Source of the DNA: Anaeromyxobacter paludicola
Lineage (GTDB): Bacteria; Myxococcota; Myxococcia; Myxococcales; Anaeromyxobacteraceae
Length of the DNA stretch: 64,000 bases
Direction: 5' to 3'
NCBI RefSeq assembly: GCF_023169965.1
Contig: NZ_AP025592.1
Coordinates: 4,486,001 to 4,550,000 of the forward strand
A model generated the notes under the pieces. That model saw nothing but the letters and a program-made list of their open reading frames with translations. It was not told where the DNA came from and searched no databases. Numbering within the stretch: position 1 is the first letter of the stretch; the number at the start of each line of letters is the position of its first letter. The translations under genes and the position numbers were made by a program. Shown piece by piece: positions 26,875 through 56,373 of the stretch.

Positions 26875-28554
26875 TCACGGCACCGCCCACCCGCCCTCCG
26901 AGACCACCCGCGTCCCGGCGCCCTGCGCGAACCGGACCACCTGGCCGCCCTTCGAGGCGAAGCGCTGCCCCGGCGCGAGGCCGAGGCGCGGGTAGTAGCC
27001 GTTCACCAGCCGGTGGCTGAGGAGCGCCTCCATCCGCTCCACGAGGTAGTCGCGCACGAAGCTGTCGAGCATGTGCCCGAGGGTCTCGGAGAGGATGGCG
27101 CAGGCGAGCCAGGTGTCGGTCTGGACGCGCTCGGCCACCACCGGCAGGCGCCGCACCTGGAACCAGCCGAGCGGGAAGCTCATGCGCACCCGCCGCTCCT
27201 CGGGCAGGTCGAACGGGTAGGCGAGCCGCGCCCGGGCGCGCCAGGCGGGGGGGAGCGGCGCCCGCTCCAGGCCGCCCATCCGGCCGGAGGCGTACACGGC
27301 GGCGACGGGGCCGGGATCGGCGGGGAGCGCCGCGACGTCGCCGGGGCGGAGCCAGAGCACCACCGCGTCGCCCGGCCCGAGGCCGGTGAGCGCCGCCGCG
27401 AGCGCGGCCCGGGGCTCGCCCGCACCGACCGTCCGCGTCACCGAGGCGAGCCCCGGCGGCGCCGCCTTCGCGAGCGCCGCGGCGGCCTCCTCGCCCACGT
27501 CGCCGGGCCGGACCACCTGCACGAGCCGCCGCACCGCCGCCCGCTCCTGCTCCCGCGCCAGCTCGCGCGAGAGGAGCGCGGCCTCGAGCAGCACGCCCTT
27601 CGAGAAGTAGACCGGGTAGAAGTCCCCCTCCGCGACCACCGGCAGGTCCACGTTGGGCAACAGGCAGGGGAGGGCGGCCCGCTCGCAGAACCGGTGCACG
27701 GGGGCCCAGGTCCGGCCGCCCAGCCCCGAGATCACGGCGAGCACCGGCTCCGCGGCGAGCCGCTCGTGGAGCTGCGCCTCCCAGCTGTCGGGCGACCCCG
27801 ACAGCTCCCAGACGTGGAGCTGCCACTTGCGGTTCACCCGGTACATGATCCCGCGCGACGACTGCATGGGCGGGGTGGCGCCGCGGTAGCCGGCGTTCTT
27901 GTCGTGGAAGAACTGGCGCAGGACGTCGAGCATCCCCTGGCGCGCCACCGGGTCGGCGTCGGGCGTGACGATGGTGGCGAAGTGGAGCGTGTCGCGCGTC
28001 ACCCCCGGCTCGGGCGCGGCGCCGAGCTGCTTCAGATACGCGATGAGCGAGGCCATGCTGGCGTCGTCGAGCGCGTAGCGCGGCATGAGGTAGCCGAGCG
28101 GCCGGCCCTCGCGATCCTTGCCCTCGCGGATGGCGCGGGCCAGCGTGGCGTCGGTGTAGGCGCCCCGCCGCGCCACGTAACCCTGCACGTGCGGGAGGTC
28201 GAGGTCGTCCACGTTCCGCGCGCCGGGCCGGAAGAGATAGCGGCCGAGGATGGGCGGGATGACGGTCTGCCCCTCCCAGCTCCCGAGGCCGCTCCGCCGG
28301 TGGCAGGTGGCGCAGGCCGCGAGCGCGCCCTCCACGCCGCCGCCGCCCTCCCGCGCGCCGCGCACCGGCCGGCCCGAGGGCAGCAGCCCCTCGCGGTAGA
28401 TGCGCTCGCCGGCGCCGGGCGAGGCGGGCGCAGGCGCGGCGGGGCGGGCGCCGGCCGCCGCGGGCGCGAGGAGGCCGGCCGCCGCGAGCAGGGCGAGGAG
28501 CCCCGGCCTCGCGCCGGGGCCGCGCCGGGCCGCGGGGGAGGTCGGCGGCCGCAT
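26875..28554 (-). CDS. Monohaem cytochrome c fused to a periplasmic-binding-protein-like domain
   Basis: The 559-residue protein begins with a signal peptide (~1-37). Residues ~48-180 form a class I cytochrome c: haem site CATCH at 81-85, and a C-terminal GYLMPRYALDDASMASLIAY, where the Met is the likely sixth ligand. From ~190 to ~500 the chain resembles type 1 periplasmic binding proteins of the Leu/Ile/Val receptor kind (LHFATIVTPDADPVARQGML ... AVISGLGG ... ETLGHMLDSFVRDYLVERME), without any transporter gene nearby. The fusion suggests a ligand-responsive or substrate-docking electron carrier. Its ATG lies four bases after the stop of the SCO1-like gene; it is the last gene of the eight-gene run. 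Confidence 0.8.
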   Translation of the reverse strand: MRPPTSPAARRGPGARPGLLALLAAAGLLAPAAAGARPAAPAPASPGAGERIYREGLLPSGRPVRGAREGGGGVEGALAACATCHRRSGLGSWEGQTVIPPILGRYLFRPGARNVDDLDLPHVQGYVARRGAYTDATLARAIREGKDREGRPLGYLMPRYALDDASMASLIAYLKQLGAAPEPGVTRDTLHFATIVTPDADPVARQGMLDVLRQFFHDKNAGYRGATPPMQSSRGIMYRVNRKWQLHVWELSGSPDSWEAQLHERLAAEPVLAVISGLGGRTWAPVHRFCERAALPCLLPNVDLPVVAEGDFYPVYFSKGVLLEAALLSRELAREQERAAVRRLVQVVRPGDVGEEAAAALAKAAPPGLASVTRTVGAGEPRAALAAALTGLGPGDAVVLWLRPGDVAALPADPGPVAAVYASGRMGGLERAPLPPAWRARARLAYPFDLPEERRVRMSFPLGWFQVRRLPVVAERVQTDTWLACAILSETLGHMLDSFVRDYLVERMEALLSHRLVNGYYPRLGLAPGQRFASKGGQVVRFAQGAGTRVVSEGGWAVP

Positions 28555-28557
28555 CGC

Positions 28558-29184
28558 TCACCGCGCCGCGAGGAGCTCCCGCAGCTCCCGCGCCAGCTCC
28601 TCGGCCGTGGCGAAGCCGTCGAGGCGCACCCAGCGCCGCCCCGGACCCGCCCGCAGGAAGGTGGCCGGCGTGTGGTCCATCTTGTCACCGCGCCAGGCGT
28701 CGAAGGCCCGCTGGGCGGCGACGCTCGCCTCGACCGTGCCGGTGTAGAGCCGCCACTGCGGGCCGGCCCCCATCCTCTTGCCATAGGCGCGCAGCCGCTC
28801 GGGGGTGTCCTGCTCCGGGTCGATGGAGATCGACACCAGGTGCACGCGGTCGCGGTCGCGCCCGAGCGCCTGCTGGAGCTGGGCGAAGGTCCGGCTCATC
28901 ACCGGACAGATGGTGGTGCAGGTGGTGAAGACGAAGTCGAGGACCACCGGCCGGCCATCGTCGAGCTCCTCGGGCAGCGTGACCACTTTGCCGTCGTCGC
29001 GGACGAGCGGCACGCGCGGCAGGACGTAGTCGGCGGTGGAGCGCCGGGCCCGCTTCAGCTCCTGGGACCCGCCGTGGTGGCAGGGAGGCTCGGCCCCGTC
29101 CTCCCCGCGGGCGGCGCGGGCCGGGAGAGCCAGGGCAGCGGCGACGAGGGCGGAGAAGAAGAGGGGATGCGCGGAGCGGCTCAT
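28558..29184 (-). CDS. SCO1/SenC-type copper chaperone, exported
   Basis: The 208-residue protein has a signal peptide and a thioredoxin fold. The copper-binding CxxxC motif lies in FVFTTCTTICPVMSRTF and the matching His is in KMDHTPATFL, giving the Cys-Cys-His site of Sco proteins. VSISIDPEQDTPERLRAYG is also characteristic. A short PCHHGG sequence after the signal could bind another metal ion. Sco proteins deliver copper to CuA sites or act as thiol reductases. Here no oxidase subunit is adjacent, so the nearby multicopper-oxidase-like proteins are the likely clients (inference). ATG 29184 is preferred over 29211 because GAGG lies eight bases before it and the signal peptide begins there. 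Confidence 0.9.
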   Translation of the reverse strand: MSRSAHPLFFSALVAAALALPARAARGEDGAEPPCHHGGSQELKRARRSTADYVLPRVPLVRDDGKVVTLPEELDDGRPVVLDFVFTTCTTICPVMSRTFAQLQQALGRDRDRVHLVSISIDPEQDTPERLRAYGKRMGAGPQWRLYTGTVEASVAAQRAFDAWRGDKMDHTPATFLRAGPGRRWVRLDGFATAEELARELRELLAAR

Positions 29185-29207
29185 GGCAGGCACCTCGGGG
29201 GTTCGGG

Positions 29208-30077
29208 TCAATCGGCCTTGGCGAAGCGGGCGTCGTCGAGCTCCGGGTTCACCGCCACGCGCTCCACGGTGAGCTTCTCGGACCCGGGCGCGCCCTCCAC
29301 GGTCGTCTCGAGGGCCATCGGGAAGAGCAGCCCGTCCACGGCGCGGTAGTCGCGCAGGTACGTGAAGACCGGCCGCACCTTGCCGTCGATCCGCCGGCTC
29401 CCCTCGACCTTCACGTCGAGGTAGCTCTTCGCGTCCACCCAGACGTGCCGCACCTCGCCGTCGCGCGAGGTCACCGCGAGCTTGTAGGCGTCCCGCCCGT
29501 CCACGGGCTCGGTGCCCACGAGCCGCACCCGGCTGCCCTGCGCCTCGTAGTCGAGGAGCGGCCCCTCGAGCTCCGACTGCTGCGAGGCGACGCGCAGCTC
29601 CTCGGCGGTGAAGGGCTCGACCTCGCGGCGGCCGAGGAACGGGCGCAGCTTGAAGCCCCGGGTGCCGTCGAAGACCTGCACCGCCGTCTGGCCCTGGAAC
29701 TTCACCTCGACGCGCGACATGCGTGGCCGCTTCAGCTCCATCGCGAAGGGGAGCTGGACCTGCCGCTCCGGGTCCCCCCGCCGCGCCAGCGCGCGCCTCG
29801 CGCCGGGCTCGAGCCGGGCCTGCGACGGCAGGTAGGACCTCGCGAGGCGCGCCGGGTCCCGCGGCCTGCCGGCCTCGAGCCGTCCCGAGATCGAGAGCGC
29901 GCGGACCTTGCGCCAGGCGGCGAGCCCGCCGCGCGCGGCGGCGTTCCGCTCGGCGATGGTGGCCGCCTCCCGCTCGTCCCGTGAGAGGTGGCAGCCCGCG
30001 GCGAGGAGCGCGAGCGGGGCGGCGAGGCGGACGAGCGCGGCGGCGGGGTGAAGGTGCTGCGAGAGGCGTCCTGGCAT
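29208..30077 (-). CDS. Outer-membrane-type lipoprotein, LolA/LolB-like fold suspected
   Basis: The 289-residue protein ends its signal in LLAAGC (Cys29). The mature part has alternating short strands (ALSISGRLEAGR, RVEVKFQGQTAVQVFDGTRG, KLAVTSRDGEVRHVWVDAKS, YLDVKVEGSRRIDGKVRPVF), a pattern like outer-membrane lipoprotein-sorting relatives that bind lipid in a half-barrel. The link with LolA is by look only. GGAG lies nine bases before ATG 30077. It lies 66 bp after the preceding gene and 23 bp before the SCO1-like gene on the same strand, so it is part of the redox run. Confidence 0.7.
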   Translation of the reverse strand: MPGRLSQHLHPAAALVRLAAPLALLAAGCHLSRDEREAATIAERNAAARGGLAAWRKVRALSISGRLEAGRPRDPARLARSYLPSQARLEPGARRALARRGDPERQVQLPFAMELKRPRMSRVEVKFQGQTAVQVFDGTRGFKLRPFLGRREVEPFTAEELRVASQQSELEGPLLDYEAQGSRVRLVGTEPVDGRDAYKLAVTSRDGEVRHVWVDAKSYLDVKVEGSRRIDGKVRPVFTYLRDYRAVDGLLFPMALETTVEGAPGSEKLTVERVAVNPELDDARFAKAD

Positions 30078-30143
30078 GGTGAGTGGCTCCCGATGTGCTC
30101 CGTCTGCGTGTCCCGCGGGCGCGGCGCCGGCCGGCCCGCGGCG

Positions 30144-30638
30144 CTACTCCACGACCAGCCCTTCCGCCCGCAGGTCGCCCACGGCGAGGGTGACGCGGCC
30201 GCCCCGCTTCACCAGGCCGCCCGGGTTCCCGAAGATCATGAAGTAGGTGCGGTGGCGCTCGAGCGGCGCGACCTGCCGCAGCTCGCCCACCTTCTCCATC
30301 GCCGGCACCGCGAGCGCGGTCCGGGTGGCCTCGTCGATGAGGAACGGCCGCGTCCGCCGGTCGGTGAGGGCCGCCGCCCGCGCCGGGTCCACCACCCGGT
30401 AGTCGAAGCGCAGCATGGAGCCGGAGGCGACCCGCCGGACGCCGACCACGTCCACGCCCCAGCTGCGCTGGAGCTGCCGGCCGCGGCGGGCGCGCCAGGC
30501 CGCGGCGGCGCCGGTCGCCGACGAGGACCCGGGCAGCGCCCCCGCCCCGCCGGAGCGGGCCGGGGCCCCGGCGCCCGCGGTCGGGGCCGCGAGCAGGAGG
30601 AGGAGCCCCGCCAGCCCCGCCGCGCCGCCGGCGCTCAC
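30144..30638 (-). CDS. Exported hypothetical protein of the redox cluster
   Basis: The 164-residue protein starts with GTG 30638, which overlaps the stop of the 2486-residue gene (GTGA), so the two are translationally coupled. The first ~22 residues are a signal peptide (GLAGLLLLLAAPTAGAGA). The mature part holds WGVDVVGVRRVASGSMLRF, DYRVVDPARAAALTDRRTRP and YFMIFGNPGGLVKRGGRVTL, suggesting a beta-sandwich that ends in GDLRAEGLVVE. It has no Cys and few His after cleavage, so it is unlikely to hold metal. The obligate coupling suggests it assists export, folding or surface attachment of the giant protein; that is inference. Confidence 0.75.
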   Translation of the reverse strand: MSAGGAAGLAGLLLLLAAPTAGAGAPARSGGAGALPGSSSATGAAAAWRARRGRQLQRSWGVDVVGVRRVASGSMLRFDYRVVDPARAAALTDRRTRPFLIDEATRTALAVPAMEKVGELRQVAPLERHRTYFMIFGNPGGLVKRGGRVTLAVGDLRAEGLVVE

Positions 30639-33600
30639 CGGACCACCCCCGCCGCCCGGTTCGCCGCGGCGACGAGCGGCGCCGCGCCCTGGTACTCGTC
30701 GGCCCCGATGTCGTAGGCGCCGGCGAGCGGCCTGGGCTGGCCGTCGTAGTCGTGGTTGGGCACGGACCCGTTCGCGGTCCCGGCGTTGTAGGCCGAGGAG
30801 GCGGTCCCGGAGAGGTGGTAGTCGCCGAACGCGGTCCCGGTCACCGGGCTCGCGAGGTAGAGCGGCCCGAAGCGGAGGGTGACGTAGTTGTTCCCCTCGT
30901 CCACGGTGGCGGCCACCTGCAGGTTCTTCACGTTCGGCGGGTCGATGACGCTCGGGAGCTCGGGGGCGGCCCGCGCGCCGTTGCAGTACGGGGTCACGAG
31001 GCGCGGGTCGCCGGAGGTGTTCCCGCTCCCGGCGTAGCCGGCCGTGCTGGTGAGCACCGCGAAGGACGGCGCCAGCCGGCGCGTGCCGGGCGTGGCCGCG
31101 GCGGCGTCGCCGAGGACGCCCAGATCCCAGTACTTCGCGCCCGCCGGGCACTGGCCGCTCGTCGCCTGGTCGGCCAGGACGGTGCACCCGGCGCGCACGT
31201 CGGCGAGGCTGTTGCCGACGCAGAGCCGGCCGTCGCCCGAGTAGAAGAACGACCGGTTGCGCCAGATGACGTCGTTGAACAGCTCCGGCTGCGAGATGGC
31301 GTTCGAGCTCCGCAGGCCGCTCGTCGCGAACTGGGCCAGCAGCGCCGGGCTGGTGGGCTCGGAGACGATGCCGGAGGGGCCGGGGCGGCCCACGCCCGCG
31401 GTGCCGGTGGTGGCCGCCGGGAGCGGCACGCCGCCCGCGAGCACCACGCCGGCGGTGCCGGTGCTGTCGTTGCCGGCGATGGTGTCGTTGTCCACGAAGG
31501 CGCGCACGGTGTCGGCGAGCGAGATCCCGCCGCCGGCCCAGGCGGCGATGTTGTCCACGATGAGGTTGTTGGTGACCGTGACCCGGTGCCAGCGCGCCGG
31601 CTGGGGGAAGGCGGTCACGTCGGCGCCGTTGACCTGCTGCAGCCGGAGGCCGCCGCCCTGGCCGCCCTCTGCGAGGTTGCCGCGGATGAGGTTGGCGTCG
31701 ATGGTCAGGTCGCCCGCGCCGAGCGAGACCGTCCCGGCCACCGGCGGCTCGCCGCCCACGAAGATGCCGCCGCCGTGCGTGGCGCCGGTCTGCTGGAAGC
31801 TCTGGTTGAAGAGGATCTGGTTGTTGGCGATGACGCCGCCCTGGCTGAACCCGAGGTGGCCCACGCCGCCGCCGTCCGAGGCGCTGTAGTTCCCGCAGAT
31901 GAAGTTGTGGTCCAGGCTGTAGCCGTCGGTGCCGGTGCAGATCGAGACGCCGCCGCCCGCGCCGCCGAAGCCGTTCGGGCCCTCGACCGTGCCGTTCTTG
32001 GTGATGGCGTTGTGGTGGATGCGGACCCCCACGTCGTAGCCGAAGCCGGCGATCCGCTGGTTGTGCAGGAGCACCCGGCCGGCCGCGTCGCTCGGCAGGG
32101 CCTCGAGCTCCAGGTAGGGGACGCCCACCCGCACGCCGCCGTTGAAGGCGCCGGCGTTGCCGTAGATCCGGTCGTTCGCGATCTCGAGCCCGTGGGCCCA
32201 GCCGTTCACGTACACGCCGCCGCCGGCGTCCCCGCCCGTGACGCTCAGGCCGTCGATGCGGGAGGGGGCGCAGAGGAAGTTGCTCTCCGAGCCGACCGTC
32301 CCGGCCGACCCGCAGTCGCTCGCCGGCAGGTTCTTCGCGAGCACGGTGACGCCGGCGCCCTCCTCGCTGCCGAGCACGGTCGGCTCGAGGAGCACCACGC
32401 CGCCCGTGATCTCCTGGGTCGGGAGCGGGTCCACCTGCGCCGGGCCGAGCTGGTTGCCGGTGATCGGGTCCACGTTGAAGAGCTGGTTGATGCGGGGGCG
32501 CCACTGGTCGAGCTTGGAGGTCGGGTACTTGGCGGCGTTGATGACCACCGAGGCGGCGCCGACGCCCTGCAGCCGCACCGGCTTCCACATGATGACCAGC
32601 TCGTTGTACGTGCCGGCGTCCACCAGGATGAGGTCGCCCGGGCGCGCCAGGTCGATGGCGTCCTGGATGGTCTGCCCGGCGGCGGCGCTCACGTAGGTCG
32701 GCGCGCGGCCGCCCACGGTGACGGTGACCGCGTCCACGGTGGACTTGCCGGCGGCGGTGGTGATGGAGAGCTCGCCCGTGGGCGTGCCCGCGGGGACGCG
32801 GACGGTGATGGCGCCGTCGCTCCAGGCGCTGACGCTGGCGGTGAGGTCGCGGGCGCCGATCCTGAGCTGGCCGCGCGCGCTCCCGAAGCCGTAGTGGCGC
32901 GTCACGGTGGCCTGGCTCGCGAGCCCGCCCGTCGCGAAGGGGCCGGCGTAGGCCGGGTTCGGGACCCGCTGGTCGCCGAGCGCGAGGATGGTGAGCGTGC
33001 CGCCGGCGGCCGGGACCCAGGGCCCGAAGCCGCTGCTCCCGTCCACGCGGAGGACGGCCGGGGTGGCGTCGGGGTAGGCGCAGTCGGCGGGGTTGTACCC
33101 GGCGGCGAAGGCGGCGATGGGGACGACCGGCGTGTCGAGGTAGGTCGTCTGCCCCGGCATGTACGGGTTCGTGTAGCAGAAGTTGCTGTAGGCCGGGTTG
33201 TAGCTCGGGTCGGTGATCATCTTCCCGGTCGCCGGGTCGGCGATGGGGCCCGGGTCGTTGATGCAGGTGACGAGCATGTTCGGGCCGTAGCCGGAGGGCG
33301 TCGGCGGGTTCACGAGCCAGCTCGAGGGGGTCATCATGTTGTAGGCGCCCCACTGGTCGCTGTAGGTGCGGGCGATCTCGTTCCCGGTGAAGTCCTTGAT
33401 CGACACCGGCACGAAGGGCACGGAGGCCTTCTCGCCGAAGTCGGGCGCGAACGCGTTGAACTCGGAGGTGGCGTCGTCGAGGATGATGCCGGTGTTGTTC
33501 GAGGCCACCGGCACCTCGGTGAAGACGAAGAAGTTGGCGCTCGACTGCATCTGATCGTTCAGCACCACCTTCTTGCGGTCGCAGAGCGGGCGGTCCATCC

Positions 33601-36600
33601 CGGCGAAGGGCGCCACCTGCTGCGCCTGCGGGAAGAGGCTCAGGTAGTCGGGCACGCGGTGGAGGCTGCCGACGCACTCCGGGAAGGTGGCGGCGTTGCT
33701 CACCGTGAAGGACCCCAGGTTGGTGGTGGGATCGCTCTGGAAGCCGGGGTCGCCGGTGCCGGGGTTGTTCGGGTTGGCGTTACCGAGCGTGGCCTGGTCG
33801 GGGAGGATGAAGATGCTCGCCAGCGCGCCGAACTGCTGGGTGGCCGGGGCGACGAAGGTGTCGCCGATGAGGATGTTCTTGTCCTCCTCCTTCACCACCT
33901 CGTAGCCGGGCGGCGTGACCGCCTCGACCACGTAGGTCCCCGGCGGCAGGCTCACCAGCGTCTGGCCGGCGGCCTTCTGCGCCGCGGTGAGCGGGTGGGC
34001 GGCGACGTAGGCGGCGCTCGGGAAGGTGTAGCGGCCGTCGTACGGCGCCGCCTGCACCTGGTTCCAGGAGTGCCAGCCGTCGTAGCAGCGCTTCCGGTCG
34101 GTGCCGCCGAGCGTGTACTGCGTGAAGGGATCGGTGGGGCTCTGGCCGGGGCACTGGAGGTTGACCTGCGCGCCGGCCGGGTAGGCGGCGGCGGGCGCGA
34201 CCGCGCCGGTGGCGGGGACGCGCAGCAGGCCGTCCGAGCCGAGCAGGTACTGCTGGCCGTTCGCGCCCTGCACCAGGTTCACGTAGTCGTCCCAGCTCGT
34301 GGTCCGGGTGGTGTCCACGAGCGCCAGCGTCTCGGAGCCGTCGGCGAGGGTCTGCTTCGCGTAGAGGTTCACGGTGACGCGCGGGACGAGCGGCTCCCAG
34401 ATGGTCTGCACGTTGAACCGCATGTCGTCGAACGGGCGGGTGGAGGAGTAGACGACCGTCCCCTGGATGCCGCCGTTCTCGCCCACGGCGTAGGGAGCGC
34501 GGCCCCACTCGACGCGCGAGCGCTGGCTGATGAAGCCCTGGAGGCCGTAGCTGAGCGCGCCGGGCTGCTCCACCCGCTCGGACGTGCCGTCGGGCGCGTA
34601 GGCGTAGGTGGACGTCCAGAGGCCGGCGCCCGGGCCGGAGGCGTCGGGCTTGCCGCCGCCGTCCACGTAGATGTGCACGCCGGTCTGCTTGAAGCGGGTC
34701 GTGTCCGCCTCGGCGACGTACCAGTTGAAGAGCGGGAAGAGCTCGGCCAGGAGCCCGTTGCCGTTGCTGTCGGTCAGCGTGGCGTTCGAGGGGGCGCCGT
34801 TGCGGTAGCGGACCGTGAGCGGCACGTTCGAGATGCCCTGCTCGCCGGCGTCGAAGCGGCCGTTGCCGTTCGCGTCCATGAAGATGTTCTGGTCGTACTG
34901 CGTGAACCAGCTCAGCACCGGGATGTTCCCGAGCGCGACGGTGGTGGTGTTCGGCGGCACCGTGACCGCGACGTTCTGGATGATCTGGTCGAGCCACTGG
35001 TCGAAGACGGCCAGGTCGTAGCTACCGGCCGGCACGCCCGCGAGGCTGAAGTTGCCGTCGGGGTCGCACTGGGCGGCGGCGACCGCCGGGCCGTTCCCGC
35101 CCTGCGAGTTGAGCACCACCTGGCAGGTGGTGGAGGCGAGGAGGTCGTAGGAGCCCGAGTCCCAGAGCGTGACGTCGGAGGGGCGGGACATGTGCTGGTT
35201 CGTCACCTTGCCGGTGACGACGCCCGTGCCCTGGAAGCCGTTCGCCGCGGCGTAGCTCGCCACGTGGGCCGGGTTCACGAAGCCGATGGTGACGTGCGGG
35301 CCGGGCGGGCCGAACTCCTGGAAGTAGACCGGCTCGTTCACGCCCACGAAGGCGTCCTGCGCCTGGGTGCCCTCGAGCGTCTCGGTCTGCCACCAGACCT
35401 CGCCCGCCCCCTCGCGCGCCGCGCCGGGGTGGGCGATGACGTCGTAGCGGGCCGGGGTGAGGTTCTTGATGAGGGCGTGGCCGGCGAGGGCGTAGACCGC
35501 GGGGTCGCCGGTGTAGCCGGGCGGCGGGTTGGGGCAGGTGTAGACCACGCCGACCAGGTTGCCGGTCGCGCTCGTGCCGGTGCCGTTGGTGGCCCGGTTC
35601 TGGTCGTCCGGGCAGCCGGGGCGGCCGAGCAGCGCGTTCGAGAGCGGCATGTTGAAGGCGTCGTAGGTCTGCTGGCCGGCGACGTCGCCGGTGCGCCCGG
35701 CGGGGTCGTTGAGGATGATGTTGAAGCCGCCGAGGCCGCTCTCGGTCGGCTCGTCCTGGCCGTTGGTGGGGGAGGAGTCCTCGTAGACGTAGATGCTCAT
35801 CTGCGCGGTGGGCAGCGGGGTCGCCTGGAGCTTCACCTTGAGCGCCGCCCACTTGCCATTCACGAACCGCACCTGCGCGCCGCCCATGGTGTGGCCGGGA
35901 GGGCTGCCGTCGCCGGGGAGGATCGAGAGGTAGTAGCGCTTCGTCGGATCGAGGGCCGCCTGGTCCGGCGTCGCCTGCTTCGCGAGCGCCTCGGCGTCGG
36001 TGACCACGTGGCGCGTCCCGCTGGCGGGGTCGAGGACCGACTGGCCGCTGCCGCAGCTCGTCGGGCCGACGCAGCCGGTCGCCACCACCGTCATGTGGCT
36101 GCGGTGGAAGCTCGTCGCCAGCGTGCGGGTGGAGAGGGCGGGGGTGGCGCTGGTGTCGTGCTGGAAGGTGAGGTCCTCCTGCATCGTCCAGCGGTAGTCG
36201 CCGAGGGCCGCGCCGGTCGAGGCGTCGGCCACGGTCACCGGCAGGCCGGCCACGCTGCCCGGCGCGCCGAAGGTGACGGTGACGGTCGCGGGGGCGCTCG
36301 GCGTCCCCTGCGAGTTGGTGGCGACGTAGGAGAAGCTGCACGAGGCGCCGCTGCCGGTGGCGGTGAAGGAGCCGTCGGCGGCGAGCGAGACCGTGCCGCA
36401 GGTGCTGCCGGTGACGCCGCCGGCGGTGAGGGCGTAGCCGCCCGGATCGACGTCGTTGGCGAGCACGCCGGGGCGCGGGGTGGTGAAGCGGCCGAGGAGG
36501 GCGCTCGTGTAGGCGTCGGCGTTGGCGGTGGGGGCGGCGCCCTTCGCGCCGACGGTCAGGGTCACCGCCGCGGTGAGCGTGGCGACGCCGTTGCCGAAGT

Positions 36601-38095
36601 AGGTGAAGCCGTCGGTCCCGCTGTAGCCGGGGGCGGGCGCGTACTGGAAGCTGCCGTCGGCGTTCAGTGTCAGCACGCCGTGGCTCGGGCCCGAGCCGGT
36701 CACCAGCGCGACGCGCGAGACGCCGACGTCGTTGGCGGTGACGTTCCCGGAGATGGCGGTGTTGTAGGGCACCTTGAAGGCGTCCGGGTTGGCGGCCGGG
36801 GTGATCGCCACCGGCAGGTTGCCCGGCGTGCCCGGGATGGTGAGCCCGCCCGCGGCGGCGACGGCGCCGGCCTGGTTCACGAGCAGGAACCCCTGCATGC
36901 CGCCGTCGGGGTGGTTGGCGGTGCTGAGGCTGAGCTGCCGGTCGAAGACGGGGTAGGTGGCGGGGGCGAACGACTTGCCGTCGGCGCTCGCCGCCGGCTT
37001 CACGAGGACGTCGAAGGTCTTGCCGGCGGTGAGGAGCACCTCGTTCTGCACCTTGGGCAGGCCCGGGGCCGGGTTGCCGTCCTCGGCGAGGAGCGACATG
37101 GGGAGCCCCACCACGGCCGGCACGTGGGTGCGGGAGCCGGCGTTGAGGAGCCGCAGCAGGGCGTTGCCGCTCGAGTACGCGGCGCCGCTCGCGAGGGAGA
37201 AGGCCGACTTGCCGGGCGCGGTCCGGTCGAACGACGCCCCGTTGATCATGAAGTAGGTGGGGGCGTAGTTGACCGCCGCCGGGTAGCAGCTGGGCTTGCA
37301 GGTGGGGTCGTCGAACCGGAGGTTCACGTCGGTCCTCGCCTGCGCCGCCGCGTCCACCGCGGCGTTCTGCACCGGGTCGAGCTCGCTGAAGAGCAGCGCG
37401 GCGTCGGCGTCGTAGGCGGCGCCGGGGTAGGCGAGGCCCGGCCCCGCGGTGACCACCAGCACGCCGTAGAGCCCCATCGGCACCTGGAGCGAGGGGAGCG
37501 TGCCGGTCTCGTAGAGGTAGGTGCCCGGGCGCAGGCTCGGCCAGGTGAGCGTGGCCGTGCTCGCGGCCGCCACCTCGGCGCCGAAGGAGCGCACGCGCTG
37601 CCCCTGCGCGGGCGGCACGAAGGGCGCCGGGGCGGGGGCGTTGCCGGGGAAGGTGGTGAAGGCCTGGCCGGAGTGGACCGGGCCGTCCATCATCTGCGGC
37701 GCGCCGACGCCGCCGCCGAGCTGGCCCAGGATCACGAAGGAGGTCGGGACCGGGAGCTCGTTGGTGAGCGTGATCTGGAGCGAGTCGCCGGCGGCGGCGA
37801 CGATGGTCGGGCCCGGCGCCCAGTCGGTGCCGCACGAGCCGGTGGCGCAGTAGCCCCACATCGGCGCCGGGGTGCCGTCGCGCAGGCCGGTGGTCATCCG
37901 GCGCGCGGTGAGCGCGATGGCCGTGCCGTTCACGTTGGCGACGGTGAGGCGCGCGGCGGCCTTCGCCGTCGCCGCGAGCGGCGTCGCCTGGGAGCTCCGG
38001 GTCCCGGACCGCTCACACGAGACGCCTGTGACCAGCATCGCCGCGGCGCCCGCGAGGGCCGCCCGGCTCACACCACGAGGGAGGCTGCGCAGCAT
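30635..38095 (-). CDS. Giant exported protein: degenerate multicopper-oxidase region, Ig/SdrD-B-like modules, beta-helix
   Basis: The 2486-residue chain has an N-terminal signal with a possible lipoprotein Cys27. Residues ~50-430 align by order with the 488-residue neighbour and keep the cupredoxin layout, yet copper ligands are missing: YLYETGT replaces AYHSGT, and RTHVPAVVG replaces HPFHFHG. Then follow two cadherin/Ig-like repeats with VTANDV and VLANDVDP (~450 and ~530), SdrD-B/Cna-B-like modules (~765 YEDSSPTNGQDEPTESGLGG; ~1070 FMDANGNGRFDAGEQGIS), an IPT-like domain (~1740-1798), and a right-handed beta-helix (~1805-2480, beginning AGQTIQDAIDLARPGDLI). It is probably surface-displayed or secreted. 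GAGGAG precedes ATG 38095. Confidence 0.85.
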   Translation of the reverse strand: MLRSLPRGVSRAALAGAAAMLVTGVSCERSGTRSSQATPLAATAKAAARLTVANVNGTAIALTARRMTTGLRDGTPAPMWGYCATGSCGTDWAPGPTIVAAAGDSLQITLTNELPVPTSFVILGQLGGGVGAPQMMDGPVHSGQAFTTFPGNAPAPAPFVPPAQGQRVRSFGAEVAAASTATLTWPSLRPGTYLYETGTLPSLQVPMGLYGVLVVTAGPGLAYPGAAYDADAALLFSELDPVQNAAVDAAAQARTDVNLRFDDPTCKPSCYPAAVNYAPTYFMINGASFDRTAPGKSAFSLASGAAYSSGNALLRLLNAGSRTHVPAVVGLPMSLLAEDGNPAPGLPKVQNEVLLTAGKTFDVLVKPAASADGKSFAPATYPVFDRQLSLSTANHPDGGMQGFLLVNQAGAVAAAGGLTIPGTPGNLPVAITPAANPDAFKVPYNTAISGNVTANDVGVSRVALVTGSGPSHGVLTLNADGSFQYAPAPGYSGTDGFTYFGNGVATLTAAVTLTVGAKGAAPTANADAYTSALLGRFTTPRPGVLANDVDPGGYALTAGGVTGSTCGTVSLAADGSFTATGSGASCSFSYVATNSQGTPSAPATVTVTFGAPGSVAGLPVTVADASTGAALGDYRWTMQEDLTFQHDTSATPALSTRTLATSFHRSHMTVVATGCVGPTSCGSGQSVLDPASGTRHVVTDAEALAKQATPDQAALDPTKRYYLSILPGDGSPPGHTMGGAQVRFVNGKWAALKVKLQATPLPTAQMSIYVYEDSSPTNGQDEPTESGLGGFNIILNDPAGRTGDVAGQQTYDAFNMPLSNALLGRPGCPDDQNRATNGTGTSATGNLVGVVYTCPNPPPGYTGDPAVYALAGHALIKNLTPARYDVIAHPGAAREGAGEVWWQTETLEGTQAQDAFVGVNEPVYFQEFGPPGPHVTIGFVNPAHVASYAAANGFQGTGVVTGKVTNQHMSRPSDVTLWDSGSYDLLASTTCQVVLNSQGGNGPAVAAAQCDPDGNFSLAGVPAGSYDLAVFDQWLDQIIQNVAVTVPPNTTTVALGNIPVLSWFTQYDQNIFMDANGNGRFDAGEQGISNVPLTVRYRNGAPSNATLTDSNGNGLLAELFPLFNWYVAEADTTRFKQTGVHIYVDGGGKPDASGPGAGLWTSTYAYAPDGTSERVEQPGALSYGLQGFISQRSRVEWGRAPYAVGENGGIQGTVVYSSTRPFDDMRFNVQTIWEPLVPRVTVNLYAKQTLADGSETLALVDTTRTTSWDDYVNLVQGANGQQYLLGSDGLLRVPATGAVAPAAAYPAGAQVNLQCPGQSPTDPFTQYTLGGTDRKRCYDGWHSWNQVQAAPYDGRYTFPSAAYVAAHPLTAAQKAAGQTLVSLPPGTYVVEAVTPPGYEVVKEEDKNILIGDTFVAPATQQFGALASIFILPDQATLGNANPNNPGTGDPGFQSDPTTNLGSFTVSNAATFPECVGSLHRVPDYLSLFPQAQQVAPFAGMDRPLCDRKKVVLNDQMQSSANFFVFTEVPVASNNTGIILDDATSEFNAFAPDFGEKASVPFVPVSIKDFTGNEIARTYSDQWGAYNMMTPSSWLVNPPTPSGYGPNMLVTCINDPGPIADPATGKMITDPSYNPAYSNFCYTNPYMPGQTTYLDTPVVPIAAFAAGYNPADCAYPDATPAVLRVDGSSGFGPWVPAAGGTLTILALGDQRVPNPAYAGPFATGGLASQATVTRHYGFGSARGQLRIGARDLTASVSAWSDGAITVRVPAGTPTGELSITTAAGKSTVDAVTVTVGGRAPTYVSAAAGQTIQDAIDLARPGDLILVDAGTYNELVIMWKPVRLQGVGAASVVINAAKYPTSKLDQWRPRINQLFNVDPITGNQLGPAQVDPLPTQEITGGVVLLEPTVLGSEEGAGVTVLAKNLPASDCGSAGTVGSESNFLCAPSRIDGLSVTGGDAGGGVYVNGWAHGLEIANDRIYGNAGAFNGGVRVGVPYLELEALPSDAAGRVLLHNQRIAGFGYDVGVRIHHNAITKNGTVEGPNGFGGAGGGVSICTGTDGYSLDHNFICGNYSASDGGGVGHLGFSQGGVIANNQILFNQSFQQTGATHGGGIFVGGEPPVAGTVSLGAGDLTIDANLIRGNLAEGGQGGGLRLQQVNGADVTAFPQPARWHRVTVTNNLIVDNIAAWAGGGISLADTVRAFVDNDTIAGNDSTGTAGVVLAGGVPLPAATTGTAGVGRPGPSGIVSEPTSPALLAQFATSGLRSSNAISQPELFNDVIWRNRSFFYSGDGRLCVGNSLADVRAGCTVLADQATSGQCPAGAKYWDLGVLGDAAAATPGTRRLAPSFAVLTSTAGYAGSGNTSGDPRLVTPYCNGARAAPELPSVIDPPNVKNLQVAATVDEGNNYVTLRFGPLYLASPVTGTAFGDYHLSGTASSAYNAGTANGSVPNHDYDGQPRPLAGAYDIGADEYQGAAPLVAAANRAAGVVR

Positions 38096-38119
38096 GGGAA
38101 TCTCCTCGGCCGAAGGGCG

Positions 38120-39586
38120 CTAGAGCGTCTCGTCGATGAACCAGGCGGGCGGGTCGATGAGCAGCATCGACATGATGCCGCCCGGGAAGACGTCGTTCGT
38201 CGTGATCTCGCGCTCGTTGTGCGAGTGCCACATGTACGCGTAGCCGGCCTGCGGGTTCTGGTTCAGCGTGCCGGGCGGCTCGTTGGTGCCGGTGAAGGAG
38301 CCGGTGCTCTGGATGCCGAGGTAGGGCGTCCCGCCGTACCACTGGCCGATGGCGACGATGGTCGGATCGGGCGGCGTCACCGGGATGGGCTTCAGGTGAT
38401 CGGCGCACCACTCGCCGGCGTTCGGGTCGGTCTTGATCGCGTGGTAGCCGGAGGCGTCGGGGATGCAGCGGCTGCCGTCCCCGGCGCGGTGGTTGTAGAC
38501 GTCCCAGTTCAGCCCCTTGCCGGTCCAGGTGAAGATCTGGTCCTGCGTCTGGCCGGAGACGGTGGGCGTGGTGAAGAGCAGCGGGCCGGCGAGCGAGGTG
38601 CCGTCGGCGGCGCTCAGGAGGAGGTTGCCGTCGCGCGCCAGCACGCGGGCGTGGTTGCCGTGGAAGTGGAACGGGTGCTGCCAGCGCCCCTGGCCCACCA
38701 TCCGCATCAGCACCTTCTCGCCCGGGTGCATGTGCGGGTTGGCGTTGTAGGGCTGGTGCGGGTAGCCGGCCGCGTAGGGCGTGTCCATGTCGTCCGGCAG
38801 CGAGCGGCCGTTCAGGAGGAAGTAGTTGGGGTGGTAGGGCTCGGTGACGGCCTGGATCGCGGGGCACGGCCCCACCGGGCAGGCCTGCACCTGCGCCAGC
38901 GCCTGGTCGTGGATCCGCGAGTCGAGCTCGCTCAGCTGGAACAGGTACTCGCGGTCGTAGCAGGTGGCGGCGTGGCCGTACGCGGCGGGCGCGAGCGAGA
39001 ACGGCCCGCGGACGCAGCCGCCGGGCGGCGTCGCCGGGAGCACCACGATCGCCCCGTAGAGCCCCATCTCGATCTGCAGGTCGGCCTGGGTGCCGCTGTG
39101 GTACGCGTGCGTGCCCGGCGTGCTCGCCACGAAGGTGTAGGTCACCGTCCCGCCGCCCGGCGCCTCCTGGGCCAGCAGCCCGGCCACGCCGCCGGCGCTC
39201 GTCACCTGGAAGCCGGGGAAGACGATCGAGGTGTTGCCGGCGGCCGGGGGCAGGGCGTTCCGCAGCGTCACCGTCACCGACTGTCCCTGGGTGACGATGA
39301 GCGTCGGCCCGGGCAGCTGCATGGTCTGCGGGCAGGTGGGGGCGGGGCCCTGGGCGCCGTTCGGGCGCGCCGGCAGGAAGCCCGCGGGCGCGCCGTCGCA
39401 GCCGTAGCCGAAGGCGTAGATCGAGGCGCCGTCGGGCTGGCTCACGAAGTCGGCGCTGGCGACGAGGTGGAAGGAGGGACCGGTGATGCCGGGGACCGCC
39501 GCGCGGGCGGGGGCGGCGGGGAGGGCCGCGCCGGCCGCCGCGACCAGCGCCGCGAGGGCGCGCGTCCGATTCGTCGAGGGCGTCAT
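38120..39586 (-). CDS. Multicopper-oxidase-like protein, HSH instead of HCH
   Basis: The 488-residue protein has a signal peptide (~1-30). Cupredoxin motifs occur in order: PGTHAYHSGTQADLQIEMGL (His160, His163), HMHPGEKV, QHPFHFHGNHARVL (His304, His307, His309) and, at the C-terminus, YMWHSHNEREITTND (His454, His456). In canonical enzymes the last motif is HCH with the type 1 copper Cys; here Ser replaces Cys, and the usual His and Met that follow are also absent. Histidines suited to a type 2/3 centre remain, but no ordinary blue copper site. It lies 11 bp after the 532-residue gene, with AGGAG before ATG 39586. Confidence 0.85.
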   Translation of the reverse strand: MTPSTNRTRALAALVAAAGAALPAAPARAAVPGITGPSFHLVASADFVSQPDGASIYAFGYGCDGAPAGFLPARPNGAQGPAPTCPQTMQLPGPTLIVTQGQSVTVTLRNALPPAAGNTSIVFPGFQVTSAGGVAGLLAQEAPGGGTVTYTFVASTPGTHAYHSGTQADLQIEMGLYGAIVVLPATPPGGCVRGPFSLAPAAYGHAATCYDREYLFQLSELDSRIHDQALAQVQACPVGPCPAIQAVTEPYHPNYFLLNGRSLPDDMDTPYAAGYPHQPYNANPHMHPGEKVLMRMVGQGRWQHPFHFHGNHARVLARDGNLLLSAADGTSLAGPLLFTTPTVSGQTQDQIFTWTGKGLNWDVYNHRAGDGSRCIPDASGYHAIKTDPNAGEWCADHLKPIPVTPPDPTIVAIGQWYGGTPYLGIQSTGSFTGTNEPPGTLNQNPQAGYAYMWHSHNEREITTNDVFPGGIMSMLLIDPPAWFIDETL

Positions 39587-39597
39587 GGGGGCGGCTC

Positions 39598-41196
39598 CTA
39601 GAAGACCTGGATCTCGGTCATCATCCCGCCGAAGTTCTCGGCGTCGTTCGACAGGTGGTCGAGGTTGGTGGAGTAGAGGTAGTAGGTGCCCGCCGGGACG
39701 TTGCTGGCGTCGAGGATCACGTCGGCCGACTCGCCGCCGCCGAGCGTGAGGGAGTTGGTGTCGTAGTAGAGGTTCCGGCCGGCGAGGTCGCGCAGCAGCC
39801 GGGCGTTCTGGGCGATGACCGTCATCGGGATGCCGACCGTGCCGAGGGTGGTGAACTCGGTGACGCTCAGGTCGGAGATGCGCAGGAGCGCCCGCGTCTG
39901 CCCCTGCGACTTGGCGATGCGGATCACGCTCGGGAGCGGCTGGGCCGGGCGGGCCACCCCGTCGGCGGCGACGGTGGAGATGGCCTTCGGGTTGACGGTG
40001 TCCGGGTAGCCGCGGCCGCTCAGGAGGAAGTACTTGTCCTTCATGTCCGCGAACGGCTCGGGGTTGAAGGTCATCCCGACGTAGTGGAAGTTCGGGTCGA
40101 ACCCCATCATCTGGATCGGGTACTCGACGTCGTAGCGGGTGGAGCCGTCGCCGTCGTTGTAGGCGTACTTGCCGCCGCCCCTCGCGCCCGTGTCCACCGC
40201 CGGCGCCGGCGTCTGCCCGGTGCAGAGGAGGTCGGAGCAGCTGAGGCCGGTGGCCGAGGGATCGACCGCGGCCCGCTTGTTGGCGGCGATCAGCGCGTCG
40301 CGGAGCGCGTCGTTCGGGCCGAGCCGGTCCTGGCGCGGGCGCACGTAGAGCTGCCCCACCATGCCCATCTGCAGGTGCTCGGGCGGGGTGATGTGGCAGT
40401 GCCAGAAGTAGGTCCCAGCGTCGGGGGCCGTGTAGTAGTAGGTGAAGCTCCCGGCGATGTTGATGGCCACCGAGGCGTCCGGCACGCCGTCGAAGTAGGA
40501 CGAGGCGTTCGGGTAGCCGTGGAAGTGGACCGTGTGCTGCTCGAAGAGGTCCGGGCGCATGATCATCCCGGGGTTGCTGAGGGTGAGGAAGAACTCGTCG
40601 TCCTCGTCGATGGCCATGAGCGGCGCCGGCGCGTTCCCGGCGAGCACGCCCATGTCCATGATCCCGGCCGGCTCGGTGATGCCGCCGTTGTTGGGCGTCG
40701 GCGCCCAGTTGGGCGCGTGGGCGCAGGTGCCGGTGACGTCCGGGCAGTCGGCGACCGTGACGCAGGCCTCCCCGGCGTTGGTCCCGCCGCCGCAGGTGCC
40801 CGCGCCGGCGCTCGAGTAGTTCGGCCCGAGGTAGCCGAGGTTGAACACGTCGGCCGGCTGCGTGCCCGGGAGCCCGGCCTGGACGTCGGCGAGCCCGGAG
40901 AGCGGGCTGAAGCCGAACAGGTAGATCTGGTGGCCGTCGGCCATGGTGGCGAAGCCGTCGCCGCCGCCGACCTCCTGGCACTTGATCTGCCCGGGGTAGC
41001 GCGCGTCGGGGGCGCAGGCGCCGCCGGGGCAGTCGGAGGCGGCGGAGCAGGCGGCGCCCGCCTTCGTCCCGCCGGAGCAGGCGCGCGGGTGGAGCGCGGT
41101 GGCGGAGGGGCACTGGACGCGGAAGGACTGGGCGCGCGCGGCGGTCGCGGACAGGCCGAGCGCGAGGAGGAGGGCGAGGCGCGGGATCCGGTGCAT
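39598..41196 (-). CDS. Multicopper-oxidase-like protein with intact type 1 copper motif in the first cupredoxin domain
   Basis: The 532-residue protein has a signal peptide (~1-22). Two disulfide-type Cys clusters (residues ~40-61 and ~135-158), each of the form C-GGT-x-AG-x2-C-x5-DCP-x-C, precede the copper domains. HTVHFHGYP (His221, 224, 226) and TYFWHCHITPPEHLQMGM (His266, Cys267, His268, His274, Met277/279) supply Cys, His and Met for a type 1 site plus His for other coppers. The second cupredoxin region ends GTYYLYSTNLDHLSND without the usual HxH. GAGAGGAG precedes ATG 41196 and overlaps the stop of the upstream small gene. Confidence 0.88.
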   Translation of the reverse strand: MHRIPRLALLLALGLSATAARAQSFRVQCPSATALHPRACSGGTKAGAACSAASDCPGGACAPDARYPGQIKCQEVGGGDGFATMADGHQIYLFGFSPLSGLADVQAGLPGTQPADVFNLGYLGPNYSSAGAGTCGGGTNAGEACVTVADCPDVTGTCAHAPNWAPTPNNGGITEPAGIMDMGVLAGNAPAPLMAIDEDDEFFLTLSNPGMIMRPDLFEQHTVHFHGYPNASSYFDGVPDASVAINIAGSFTYYYTAPDAGTYFWHCHITPPEHLQMGMVGQLYVRPRQDRLGPNDALRDALIAANKRAAVDPSATGLSCSDLLCTGQTPAPAVDTGARGGGKYAYNDGDGSTRYDVEYPIQMMGFDPNFHYVGMTFNPEPFADMKDKYFLLSGRGYPDTVNPKAISTVAADGVARPAQPLPSVIRIAKSQGQTRALLRISDLSVTEFTTLGTVGIPMTVIAQNARLLRDLAGRNLYYDTNSLTLGGGESADVILDASNVPAGTYYLYSTNLDHLSNDAENFGGMMTEIQVF

Positions 41197-41210
41197 GGGG
41201 CGGGCTCCTC

Positions 41211-41465
41211 TCAGGGGCGGGGCGGCGAGGACTTCGAGGCCGTCGCGGGGCTGGCGGGGGCGGCGGTGGCGCAGCCGGCGCCGGCGCAGCGCGCCTTGCC
41301 GGCGGGCCGCGCGGCGCGCTTCAGGCGCGCGTGGTGGGCGGCGGCCCGGTGGAGCCGGTGCCCGCGGGCGGCGAGCGCCGGGCGGGGCGCCAGCGCCAGC
41401 GCCAGGGCCAGCGCGGCGGCGAGCGTGGACGGGAACGGCAGGCGGCGCCTCGGGCGGGTGGTCAT
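41211..41465 (-). CDS. Small exported His/Cys protein, first gene of the redox run
   Basis: The 84-residue protein has a signal peptide (~10-32, STLAAALALALALAPRPALA). The mature part, about 52 residues, has five histidines in GHRLHRAAAHHARLKR and two cysteines in ARCAGAGCATA, with an Ala/Pro/Ser tail. GGGAG lies a few bases upstream of ATG 41465, and its stop overlaps the Shine-Dalgarno of the next gene. The His and Cys content suggests a small periplasmic metal-binding peptide, perhaps copper, but no family is recognised. It opens the eight-gene minus-strand series and faces the histidine kinase gene. Confidence 0.65.
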   Translation of the reverse strand: MTTRPRRRLPFPSTLAAALALALALAPRPALAARGHRLHRAAAHHARLKRAARPAGKARCAGAGCATAAPASPATASKSSPPRP

Positions 41466-41693: not shown

Positions 41694-42503
41694 ATGAGGA
41701 TCAAGCCGGCGAGAGGGGCGCCAGGCCGATCCTCGGGAGCCGACGTGCTTCACGAGCTGCGCAGGGAAGACGCGCACACCGGTCCGGGCCGCCGCTCGGC
41801 GCCCGGAACGGGGGGGGGCTCCCGGCGCGGCAGCGAGCGGCGGCGCCGGCTCCAGGCCCGGGAGGACGAGCGGTCGCGCATCTCGCGAGAGCTGCACGAC
41901 ACCACCGCCCAGAACCTCTCCGCCGCCGTGCTGGGCCTCTCCCGGGCCCTCGGGGTGCTCGGCGACGGGGCCGGACCGGCCGCCCCCATCCTGGTGGACG
42001 CCCTCGCGCTCTGCTCGGCGAGCCTGGAGGAGGTCCGGACGCTCTCGTACCAGCTCCGGCCGCCGCTCCTCGAGGAGGGGGGCCTCGGGCCGGCGCTGGA
42101 GTGGTACGCGGGGGTCTTCTCCCGGCGCTCCGGGATCCCGGTGGAGCTCACGCTCCCCCGCGAGGCGCGGCGACTCCCCCGCGCCCTCGAGTCGGCGCTC
42201 TTCCGGATCGCCCAGGAGGCGCTCTCGAACGCGCAGCGCCACTCGGGCTGCGCGCGGGTCGCGCTGCGGCTCGCCGTCGAGGAGCGCGCCGCCCGGCTCG
42301 AGATCGAGGACGACGGCCCGGCGGCCTCCGGCCTGCAGCTCGTCTCCGGCGCCCGGCCACCTGGAAAAGGGCTCCAGGGGATGCGCGAGCGGGCCCGGGC
42401 CGTCGGCGGGCGGCTCGCGCTCGAGCGCCCCGCCGGCCTGCTCGTCCGCGTCGTCGTGCCCCGACGGAGGTGCGCCCGTGCTCCAGATCCTGCTGGCCGA
42501 TGA
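41694..42503 (+). CDS. NarL-type sensor histidine kinase (HisKA_3), no input domain visible
   Basis: This 269-residue kinase has its phosphoacceptor in SRISRELHDTTAQNLSAAV (His68) and an ATP-binding domain toward the end (ALFRIAQEALSNAQRHS as N box; EDDGPAASG and GKGLQGMRERARAVGG as G boxes). No membrane segment or PAS/GAF domain precedes it, so it is probably cytoplasmic and needs another sensor. The start is uncertain: ATG 41694 is the first reasonable codon, and a GTG 54 bases on is possible. Its end overlaps the response regulator start by 26 bp, implying coupling. It is divergent from the copper/haem run, which it likely regulates (inference). Confidence 0.8.
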   Translation: MRIKPARGAPGRSSGADVLHELRREDAHTGPGRRSAPGTGGGSRRGSERRRRLQAREDERSRISRELHDTTAQNLSAAVLGLSRALGVLGDGAGPAAPILVDALALCSASLEEVRTLSYQLRPPLLEEGGLGPALEWYAGVFSRRSGIPVELTLPREARRLPRALESALFRIAQEALSNAQRHSGCARVALRLAVEERAARLEIEDDGPAASGLQLVSGARPPGKGLQGMRERARAVGGRLALERPAGLLVRVVVPRRRCARAPDPAGR

Positions 42504-43107
42504 TCACCCGGTGCTCCGGGCCGGCGTCCGCGCGCTCCTCGAGTCGCACGAGGGCTGGCGGGTCTGCGCCGAGTGCGGCGACGGGGCCGAGGCGGTGCGG
42601 CTCGCCGGCGCGCTTCGGCCGGACGTCGCCATCGTGGACCTGTCGCTGCCCGGCCTCGACGGGCTCGAGGCGACCCGCCGCGTCTGCCGGGCGAGCCCGG
42701 GCACGGCGGTGCTGCTCTACACCATGCACGCCTCCGAGCTCCTCGGAGAGCAGGTGCGCCGCGCCGGGGGGCGCGCCTACGTCCTCAAAGGGACGCCGGC
42801 GGCGCAGCTCGTCGAGGCGGTGGAGGCGCTCGCGGCGCGGGGCACCTGGTGGGCCTCCGGCGCGGCGCTCCGGCCGCCGAACGTCGCGGCGCGTCCGTCG
42901 GGGGACCTCGCCCGCCTCACGGCGCGGGAGCGGGAGGTGCTGCTGCTCCTCGCGGAGGGGAACAGCAACGCCGCGGCGGCGCGGGCCCTCGGGATCGGGG
43001 TGAAGACCGTCGAGACCCACCGCGGGAACCTCATGCTCAAGCTGGGGCTCGCGTCGGCGGTGGAGCTCGTTCACTACGCGGTGAGGAACCGGCTCGTCAC
43101 GCCCTGA
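42478..43107 (+). CDS. NarL/FixJ-family response regulator
   Basis: The 209-residue protein has an N-terminal receiver with the acidic pair ADDH (residues 7-10), phosphorylation site Asp54 in IVDLSLPG, and the conserved Lys of YVLKG. The C-terminal LuxR-type helix-turn-helix (~145-205) begins LTAREREVLLLLAEGNSNAAA and includes GIGVKTVETHRGNLMLKL. It starts with GTG 42478 inside the kinase gene. A partner of the preceding HisKA_3 kinase is expected. The 18-bp palindrome at 41487-41504 is a candidate target. Confidence 0.9.
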   Translation: MLQILLADDHPVLRAGVRALLESHEGWRVCAECGDGAEAVRLAGALRPDVAIVDLSLPGLDGLEATRRVCRASPGTAVLLYTMHASELLGEQVRRAGGRAYVLKGTPAAQLVEAVEALAARGTWWASGAALRPPNVAARPSGDLARLTAREREVLLLLAEGNSNAAAARALGIGVKTVETHRGNLMLKLGLASAVELVHYAVRNRLVTP

Positions 43108-54791: not shown

Positions 54792-54798
54792 CCATCGC

Positions 54799-56351: not shown

Positions 56352-56373
56352 CGCCGCACGCCCGAGACCCGTC

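Follow-up and report, generated by a model that had tools for sequence, protein, structure and literature searches.

Three adjacent genes of Anaeromyxobacter paludicola, conserved in about ten phyla, probably encode one multicopper oxidase with a trinuclear copper site shared between two proteins

The analyzed stretch of DNA, hereafter the window, comprises 64,000 nucleotides (positions 4,486,001 to 4,550,000 of contig NZ_AP025592.1) of Anaeromyxobacter paludicola, whose 4.59-Mb genome forms one contig. On its minus strand, a co-directional run of eight genes extends from 41465 to 26875, with intergenic gaps of -4 to 66 bp and in the order small84, MCO1, MCO2, giant (MCO3), p164, LolA-like, SCO1, and cytochrome-PBP, the last being a fusion with a periplasmic-binding-protein (PBP)-like domain. 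This run had been described in an earlier note made from the letters of the DNA and was confirmed here. MCO1, MCO2, and the N-terminus of MCO3 are three paralogous proteins of the type C two-domain multicopper-oxidase (MCO) fold. They are interpreted, with a probability of about 0.77, as three subunits of one exported multicopper oxidase, with a trinuclear site shared by domain 1 (D1) of MCO1 and domain 2 (D2) of MCO2 and probably with a 1:1:1 six-domain ring. The sharing of one trinuclear site by MCO1 and MCO2, as suggested by their ligands and by predicted models, is very likely.

In MCO1, a complete type 1 (T1) copper site and half of a trinuclear site are found in domain 1, where the motifs HxxHxHG and HCHxxxxEHxQMGM provide the T1 His, Cys, His, and Met together with four trinuclear His; domain 2 has no ligands. 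In MCO2, domain 1 is ligand-free, and domain 2 supplies the complementary trinuclear half-site; a T1 Cys is missing. The four canonical HxH motifs (eight His) occur once per trio, and only when MCO1 and MCO2 are pooled. The earlier note had attributed to MCO1 a T1 site and no later His motifs; this is correct, but MCO1 also holds half of the trinuclear His (HFH, HCH) and not the T1 site only. The HPFHFHG and HSH motifs and the missing T1 Cys reported for MCO2 were found as described, with Pfam Cu-oxidase matches in their support. The giant protein, said to have the same layout with no ligands, is indeed ligand-free, but the layout is limited to its N-terminal ~430 residues, and the rest is a surface module. 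The split motifs are above chance, with Pfam E-values of 1e-12 to 1e-14 in MCO1 and MCO2 and the split kept across about 90 loci.

Among the 93 MCO1 sequences, every ligand His, the Cys, and the Met at +5 are present in 93 of 93, and the Met at +3 is present in 92. For domain 2 of MCO2, HxHG was found in 91/91 and HSH in 88/88 of the sequences with letters in the column. No HxH was found in 88 of 89 MCO3 sequences. An acidic residue two positions after HCH (HCHxE) is present in 85 of the 93 MCO1 sequences. Thus, all eight trinuclear His were retained while all other ligand sites of the trio decayed, which is hard to explain unless the full cluster is used. Together with the HCHxE motif, this argues against electron transfer with no oxidase chemistry, in which MCO1 would be a type 1 copper carrier and an electron shuttle to minerals (e.g., for Fe(III) reduction) and the His residues of MCO2 would be structural or copper-storing. 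Such a role would agree with the hosts of the trio, among them relatives of Fe(III) reducers as well as many anaerobes, and with the requirement of Geobacter OmpB for Fe(III) oxide reduction (PMC5566968), but it is considered quite unlikely. A copper nitrite reductase (NirK), which has a single type 2 Cu with three His, was ruled out, since MCO1 and MCO2 together conserve eight trinuclear His.

By sequence, the best solved relatives of MCO1 are the type C two-domain oxidases 3g5w (Nitrosomonas europaea) and 2zwn (metagenomic). When 3g5w was aligned along the length of an MCO2 relative, both D2 motifs were kept and both D1 motifs were lost; its alignment to MCO1 gave the reverse pattern, i.e., the opposite half is retained. 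Two-domain oxidases are trimeric and hold the trinuclear site between protomers; in those of type C, T1 is in the N-terminal domain (PMC13151041). The trio resembles the type C oxidases in its fold and in the T1 site of domain 1, as well as in the proposed location of the trinuclear site, where domain 1 meets domain 2 of a different chain. Type C oxidases, however, are homotrimers with both halves on every chain, whereas in the trio each half belongs to a separate gene product, which allows a single site per trio. Accordingly, T1 in the N-terminal domain was found in MCO1 only, and no polypeptide of the trio carries both trinuclear half-sites. Because the motif losses relative to 3g5w are complementary, the trio looks like the descendant of a type C homotrimer whose chains diverged until one complete site per trimer was left. 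MCO1, MCO2, and MCO3 form three reciprocally monophyletic families (support 1.0, 0.979, and 0.923), and the mirror-tree distance correlation between MCO1 and MCO2 is r = 0.81.

Approximately 85,000 species genomes were scanned with the MCO1 profile, and 80 loci were retrieved; about 430 weaker matches were left out. These loci, mostly from metagenome-assembled genomes, are labelled Myxococcota, Pseudomonadota, Desulfobacterota, Nitrospirota, Acidobacteriota, Planctomycetota, Hydrogenedentes, Bdellovibrionota, Chloroflexota, and CSSED10-310. In all these roughly ten phyla, MCO1, MCO2, and MCO3 are adjacent and in constant order wherever the contig continues. MCO2 was found in 79 of the 80 loci and MCO3 in 76, the remaining loci stopping at a contig edge. 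No fusion of MCO1 with MCO2 or of MCO2 with MCO3 was found among the 80 loci. A sequencing error or a broken long gene was ruled out, as each of the three proteins has a start and an N-terminal export signal of its own, and separate genes encode them across the 80 loci.

Homologues occurring alone, which the earlier note had named as contrary evidence, were not encountered: no lone MCO1 or MCO2 was found among the Myxococcota, the 80 cross-phylum loci, 299 sampled genomes from another phylum, or 8 plasmid/chromid records. In 195 Myxococcota genomes, strong MCO1 and strong MCO2 matches occur in the same genomes and adjoin each other. Two genomes of this set (G049 and G053) have their matches at contig ends, the contigs being broken inside MCO1, and in the one exception (G054) the contig begins inside MCO2. 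Among the 299 genomes around a Thiobacillus, MCO2 matches were found in the central genome and in one more, the latter with all three genes side by side. Separate searches of plasmid records with MCO1 and with MCO2 retrieved the same 8 records, from Cupriavidus metallidurans and Paraburkholderia. Independent activity of each protein, e.g., as an oxidase for copper resistance or as a nitrite-reductase-like enzyme, is very improbable: by itself, MCO1 supplies half a cluster and MCO2 lacks a type 1 site, and the two were never apart in the sets examined. Matches to copper_res_A and Cu nitrite reductase models, which could speak for such activity, are weak and far below the cut-off, and searches of the cluster proteins against NCBIfam gave only sub-threshold oxidase and nitrite reductase matches.

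In some loci, the genes share a reading frame and are split only by stops, which made a single-chain AlphaFold2 model possible; the natural DNA was read through with the stops as Gly. The trio of locus L089 gave a predicted local distance difference test (pLDDT) score of 79.7 and a predicted template-modelling (pTM) score of 0.83 over 1169 residues, and the MCO1-MCO2 pair of locus L071 gave 78.9 and 0.81 over 829 residues. A pTM at such levels requires a confident relative arrangement of the chains. In VIA-align comparisons, the three-domain oxidase 6vow matched the L071 pair with Z 26.8 (root-mean-square deviation, rmsd, 2.9 Å; 379/409 residues; model residues 36-823) and bilirubin oxidase 7z5p matched it with Z 25.0 (rmsd 3.2 Å; 402/505 residues; model residues 21-823). 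By the sequence order of the superposition, MCO1-D1 falls on laccase D1 and MCO2-D2 on laccase D3. Laccase D1 and D3 are the domain pair holding the trinuclear site. A model with no inter-chain copper site had also been named as contrary evidence; the predicted MCO1-MCO2 interface reproduces, between chains, the D1/D3 arrangement of laccase. The proposal that the proteins jointly form one oxidase is therefore supported by complementary conserved ligands, constant adjacency, and the MCO1-MCO2 model. In addition, the model of an MCO2 relative matched 2zwn and 3g5w with VIA Z 28.8-30.2 (rmsd 2.5-3.0), and that of an MCO1 relative matched two-domain proteins with Z about 26.

The pTM of 0.81 reached by the pair alone would also suit another hetero-assembly, e.g., a heterodimer, in which MCO1 and MCO2 share the trinuclear site and MCO3 stands outside the ring as a mere surface anchor or a separate protein. 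The absence of any ligands from MCO3 and its fusion to the surface module in the window and in Burkholderiales point the same way. However, MCO3 is a genuine third paralogue of the same fold and always third in order, the pTM stays at 0.83 when it is added, and the two-domain oxidases are trimers (PMC13151041). An assembly with MCO3 outside the ring is thus regarded as unlikely, and a heterotrimer including MCO3 as likely.

Several points weigh against the proposed oxidase. The genome-scan patterns include part of the T1 motif of MCO1, so EH-QMGM and the first His were partly selected for and their conservation is biased; no pattern covers HCH, the HxHG pair, or any position of MCO2. In the clade of the window, Thr and not Glu is found after HCH. 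A role in O2 reduction is also less evident for the many hosts assigned to anaerobic groups. The AlphaFold2 models are artificial read-through chains of relatives and not the separate chains of the window, and AlphaFold2 may reproduce known oxidase packing by default. Finally, superposition of the trio model on ceruloplasmin in chain order gave a TM score of 0.21-0.24 with rmsd about 34 Å and lent no support to a ceruloplasmin-like chain order. MCO1-D1 must face MCO2-D2, whereas the ceruloplasmin order would pair MCO1-D1 with MCO3-D2, so a reversed ring is expected to mismatch; the poor match fits a reversed subunit order but is no proof of a ring.

In the proposed mechanism, MCO1, MCO2, and MCO3 would assemble 1:1:1 as a six-domain ring resembling the ancestral homotrimeric type C oxidases. 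The single active unit would be formed by domain 1 of MCO1, with the type 1 Cu and four trinuclear His, and domain 2 of MCO2, with the other four, and the equivalent sites at the two other interfaces would be ligand-free. Because of this ligand loss, MCO3 would serve structure and anchoring, and in the lineage of the window it bears a fused large surface module that may bind minerals or matrix. SCO1 likely aids copper loading, and the monohaem cytochrome-PBP and p164 would be accessory. In the likely reaction, the type 1 site would take single electrons from an external donor, and the trinuclear site would carry out four-electron O2 reduction; the donor is likely Fe(II) or Mn(II), possibly mineral-bound. 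We infer the stoichiometry, copper loading, O2 reduction, and substrate from the features described above.

A cluster of this type is already known from publications. In Sideroxydans lithotrophicus ES-1, magnetite raised the levels of the proteins encoded by Slit_1812-1818 relative to Fe(II)-citrate (Keffer et al., 2025; PMC12016527). According to the same paper, the third protein is larger and has no MCO motifs, and similar clusters were noted in Anaeromyxobacter, Paraburkholderia, and Ralstonia. He et al. (PMC5566968) describe the three tandem MCO genes of Sideroxydans and report no homology to MofA/OmpB. Judging by its published description, Slit_1812-1818 resembles the cluster in the window, having three tandem cupredoxin genes (the third large and motif-free), small hypothetical proteins, SCO1/SenC, and a cytochrome. 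In the portions of these papers available, Slit_1817 and Slit_1818 are treated as MCOs with canonical motifs, and neither complementary half-sites with a shared trinuclear cluster nor a wide family with the surface module as a separate gene is described. Literature searches revealed no published heteromeric multicopper oxidase of such a kind and no report of a shared copper site; the split-site reading of MCO1 and MCO2 is apparently new. Extracellular Fe/Mn oxidation, suggested in the earlier note, is plausible and is helped by the magnetite proteomics of the homologous cluster (PMC12016527). That Fe/Mn oxidation is the main role is proposed tentatively, on the basis of these proteomics, the surface module, and analogy.

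By layout, the same cluster type is found in Paraburkholderia and Cupriavidus. In Paraburkholderia, as in the window, the giant is fused to MCO3 and followed by p164, with two LolA-like genes; the trio, p164, and the LolA-like genes carry hypothetical-protein annotations, and the expected position of cytochrome-PBP is taken by a gene labelled as an ABC transporter substrate-binding protein. Cupriavidus has the same gene set, with cytochrome-PBP preceding SCO1.

Overall, it is fairly likely that the trio is a heteromeric oxidase of about ten phyla, an unfused heterotrimer of specialized paralogues whose O2-reducing trinuclear site comes from two gene products and which acts on extracellular minerals. 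If this is true, an unexplained cluster, raised during oxidation of solid iron, becomes a testable enzyme, one oxidase from three proteins. It would be an unfused, asymmetric counterpart of six-domain oxidases like ceruloplasmin and would give evidence on the conversion of homotrimers into single-site enzymes. Protein-by-protein annotation would count two multicopper oxidases where one exists, and the combination of MCO1, MCO2, and MCO3 would be a marker to seek in metal-cycling communities.

Like the trio, MnxG and ceruloplasmin have three times two cupredoxin domains and a single trinuclear site, but each is a single chain, whereas the trio is encoded by separate genes throughout the 80 loci. 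In bacterial six-domain oxidases, T1 is in domain 2 and the trinuclear cluster lies between domains 2 and 3 (PMC3600357); in the trio, by contrast, T1 is in the first domain of the pair. The MofABC cluster of Leptothrix and the OmpB cluster of Geobacter resemble the window in having a MofC-like cytochrome c and periplasmic-binding protein by an extracellular MCO, with SCO1/SenC in some cases (PMC5566968); judged by description only, their MCO is one long chain, unlike the trio. A search aimed at MofA-type loci, covering 4 genomes, gave nothing new. At about 2768482 of the A. paludicola genome (G000:C1, L003) lies the gene of another, conventional multicopper oxidase; it is of the three-domain CotA/bilirubin-oxidase-like kind, and a single chain bears all its His motifs.

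The giant of the window is a fusion, MCO3 and the surface module being separate genes in most relatives. Its N-terminal Cu-oxidase domain has a weak Pfam match (0.0056), and its surface module comprises Big_9/cadherin-like, SdrD_B, right-handed beta-helix, and choice-of-anchor Q parts. In deeper Myxococcota relatives, the trio consists of three tandem genes and the SdrD_B/beta-helix protein has its own upstream gene. The recurrent order among the 80 loci is giant, MCO1, MCO2, MCO3, with the giant upstream in 62/62 loci with room. In L100, L113 (partially), L114, L117, and L136, the giant is fused to the start of MCO1; L131, the window, and Burkholderiales have it joined to the end of MCO3.

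The other genes of the cluster are listed in Table 1. The small exported partners mentioned in the earlier note stood in part: p164 represents a conserved family, found after MCO3 in 59/71 loci with room and matched by no Pfam or NCBIfam model, but small84, with one homologue, is doubtful. The SCO1 chaperone and the cytochrome-PBP fusion were both verified, and the cytochrome-PBP homologue of L065 additionally matches Peripla_BP_6 (9.5e-9). Downstream of the trio, SCO1 was found in 12/50 loci and cytochrome-PBP in 13/50; they are upstream in some others, and many loci end too early. LolA-like homologues were found in Anaeromyxobacteraceae, Cupriavidus, and Paraburkholderia.

Table 1. Genes of the cluster and copper-ligand motifs, in window coordinates
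Feature	Position	Strand	Remarks
small84	41211..41465	-	Possible small exported protein; gene status uncertain; single homologue in L050 (E 1.5e-5)
MCO1	39598..41196	-	532 aa, exported, two cupredoxin domains; Pfam PF07732 1.7e-12, PF07731 2.7e-11
HTVHFHG of MCO1 (residue 221)	40516..40536	-	First H is T1 His; then trinuclear HxH
HCHITPPEHLQMGM of MCO1 (residue 266)	40360..40401	-	Trinuclear HxH flanking T1 Cys; T1 His; axial Met
MCO2	38120..39586	-	488 aa, exported, two cupredoxin domains; Pfam PF07732 1.3e-14, PF07731 9.9e-8
HPFHFHG of MCO2 (residue 304)	38657..38677	-	Trinuclear HxH
WHSH of MCO2 (residue 453)	38219..38230	-	Trinuclear HxH
MCO3-giant fusion	30635..38095	-	2486 aa; N-terminal ~430 residues are the ligand-free third two-cupredoxin subunit; remainder surface module
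p164	30144..30638	-	164-aa exported protein; GTG start overlaps stop of giant; directly after MCO3
LolA-like	29208..30077	-	289 aa, outer-membrane lipoprotein-sorting-like; PF17131 6.9e-6, slightly below curated cut-off
SCO1/SenC	28558..29184	-	208 aa, copper chaperone; PF02630 2e-20; CTTIC motif
Cytochrome-PBP	26875..28554	-	559 aa, MofC-like monohaem cytochrome c fused to periplasmic-binding-protein-like domain; PF00034 1.4e-4; one CATCH

A subtilase (S8) was found downstream in 37/50 loci with room. It is absent from the cluster of the window, where a LolA-like gene is in its place. In unfused operons, the subtilase gene lies between p164 and SCO1 (L066, 12993-14957; L094, 12928-15192; L058, 6927-9032; L059, 12104-13639); the L066 protein matches Peptidase_S8 at 1.2e-43. 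This subtilase may process the surface protein. In one divergent trio (L061 of genome G047, MCO1 at 11320-12750), the N-terminus of MCO1 has a twin-arginine-type signal (RRSFLK), which suggests that this lineage exports MCO1 by a different route.

On the plus strand, divergent from the MCO operon, a gene for a NarX/DegS-like histidine kinase (RISRELHD motif) overlaps that for a NarL-type response regulator (41850-43107). This pair could be the regulator of the operon; response regulators are also found near the Paraburkholderia cluster (L152). ARAGORN also calls a tRNA of unknown type antisense within MCO1 (40243-40332, plus strand), most likely falsely. Elsewhere in the window, the plus strand carries an apparent nitrogenase-like gene run (53349-61591) encoding NifD/K/E/N-like proteins, a ferredoxin, and NifX-like and NifB-like proteins.

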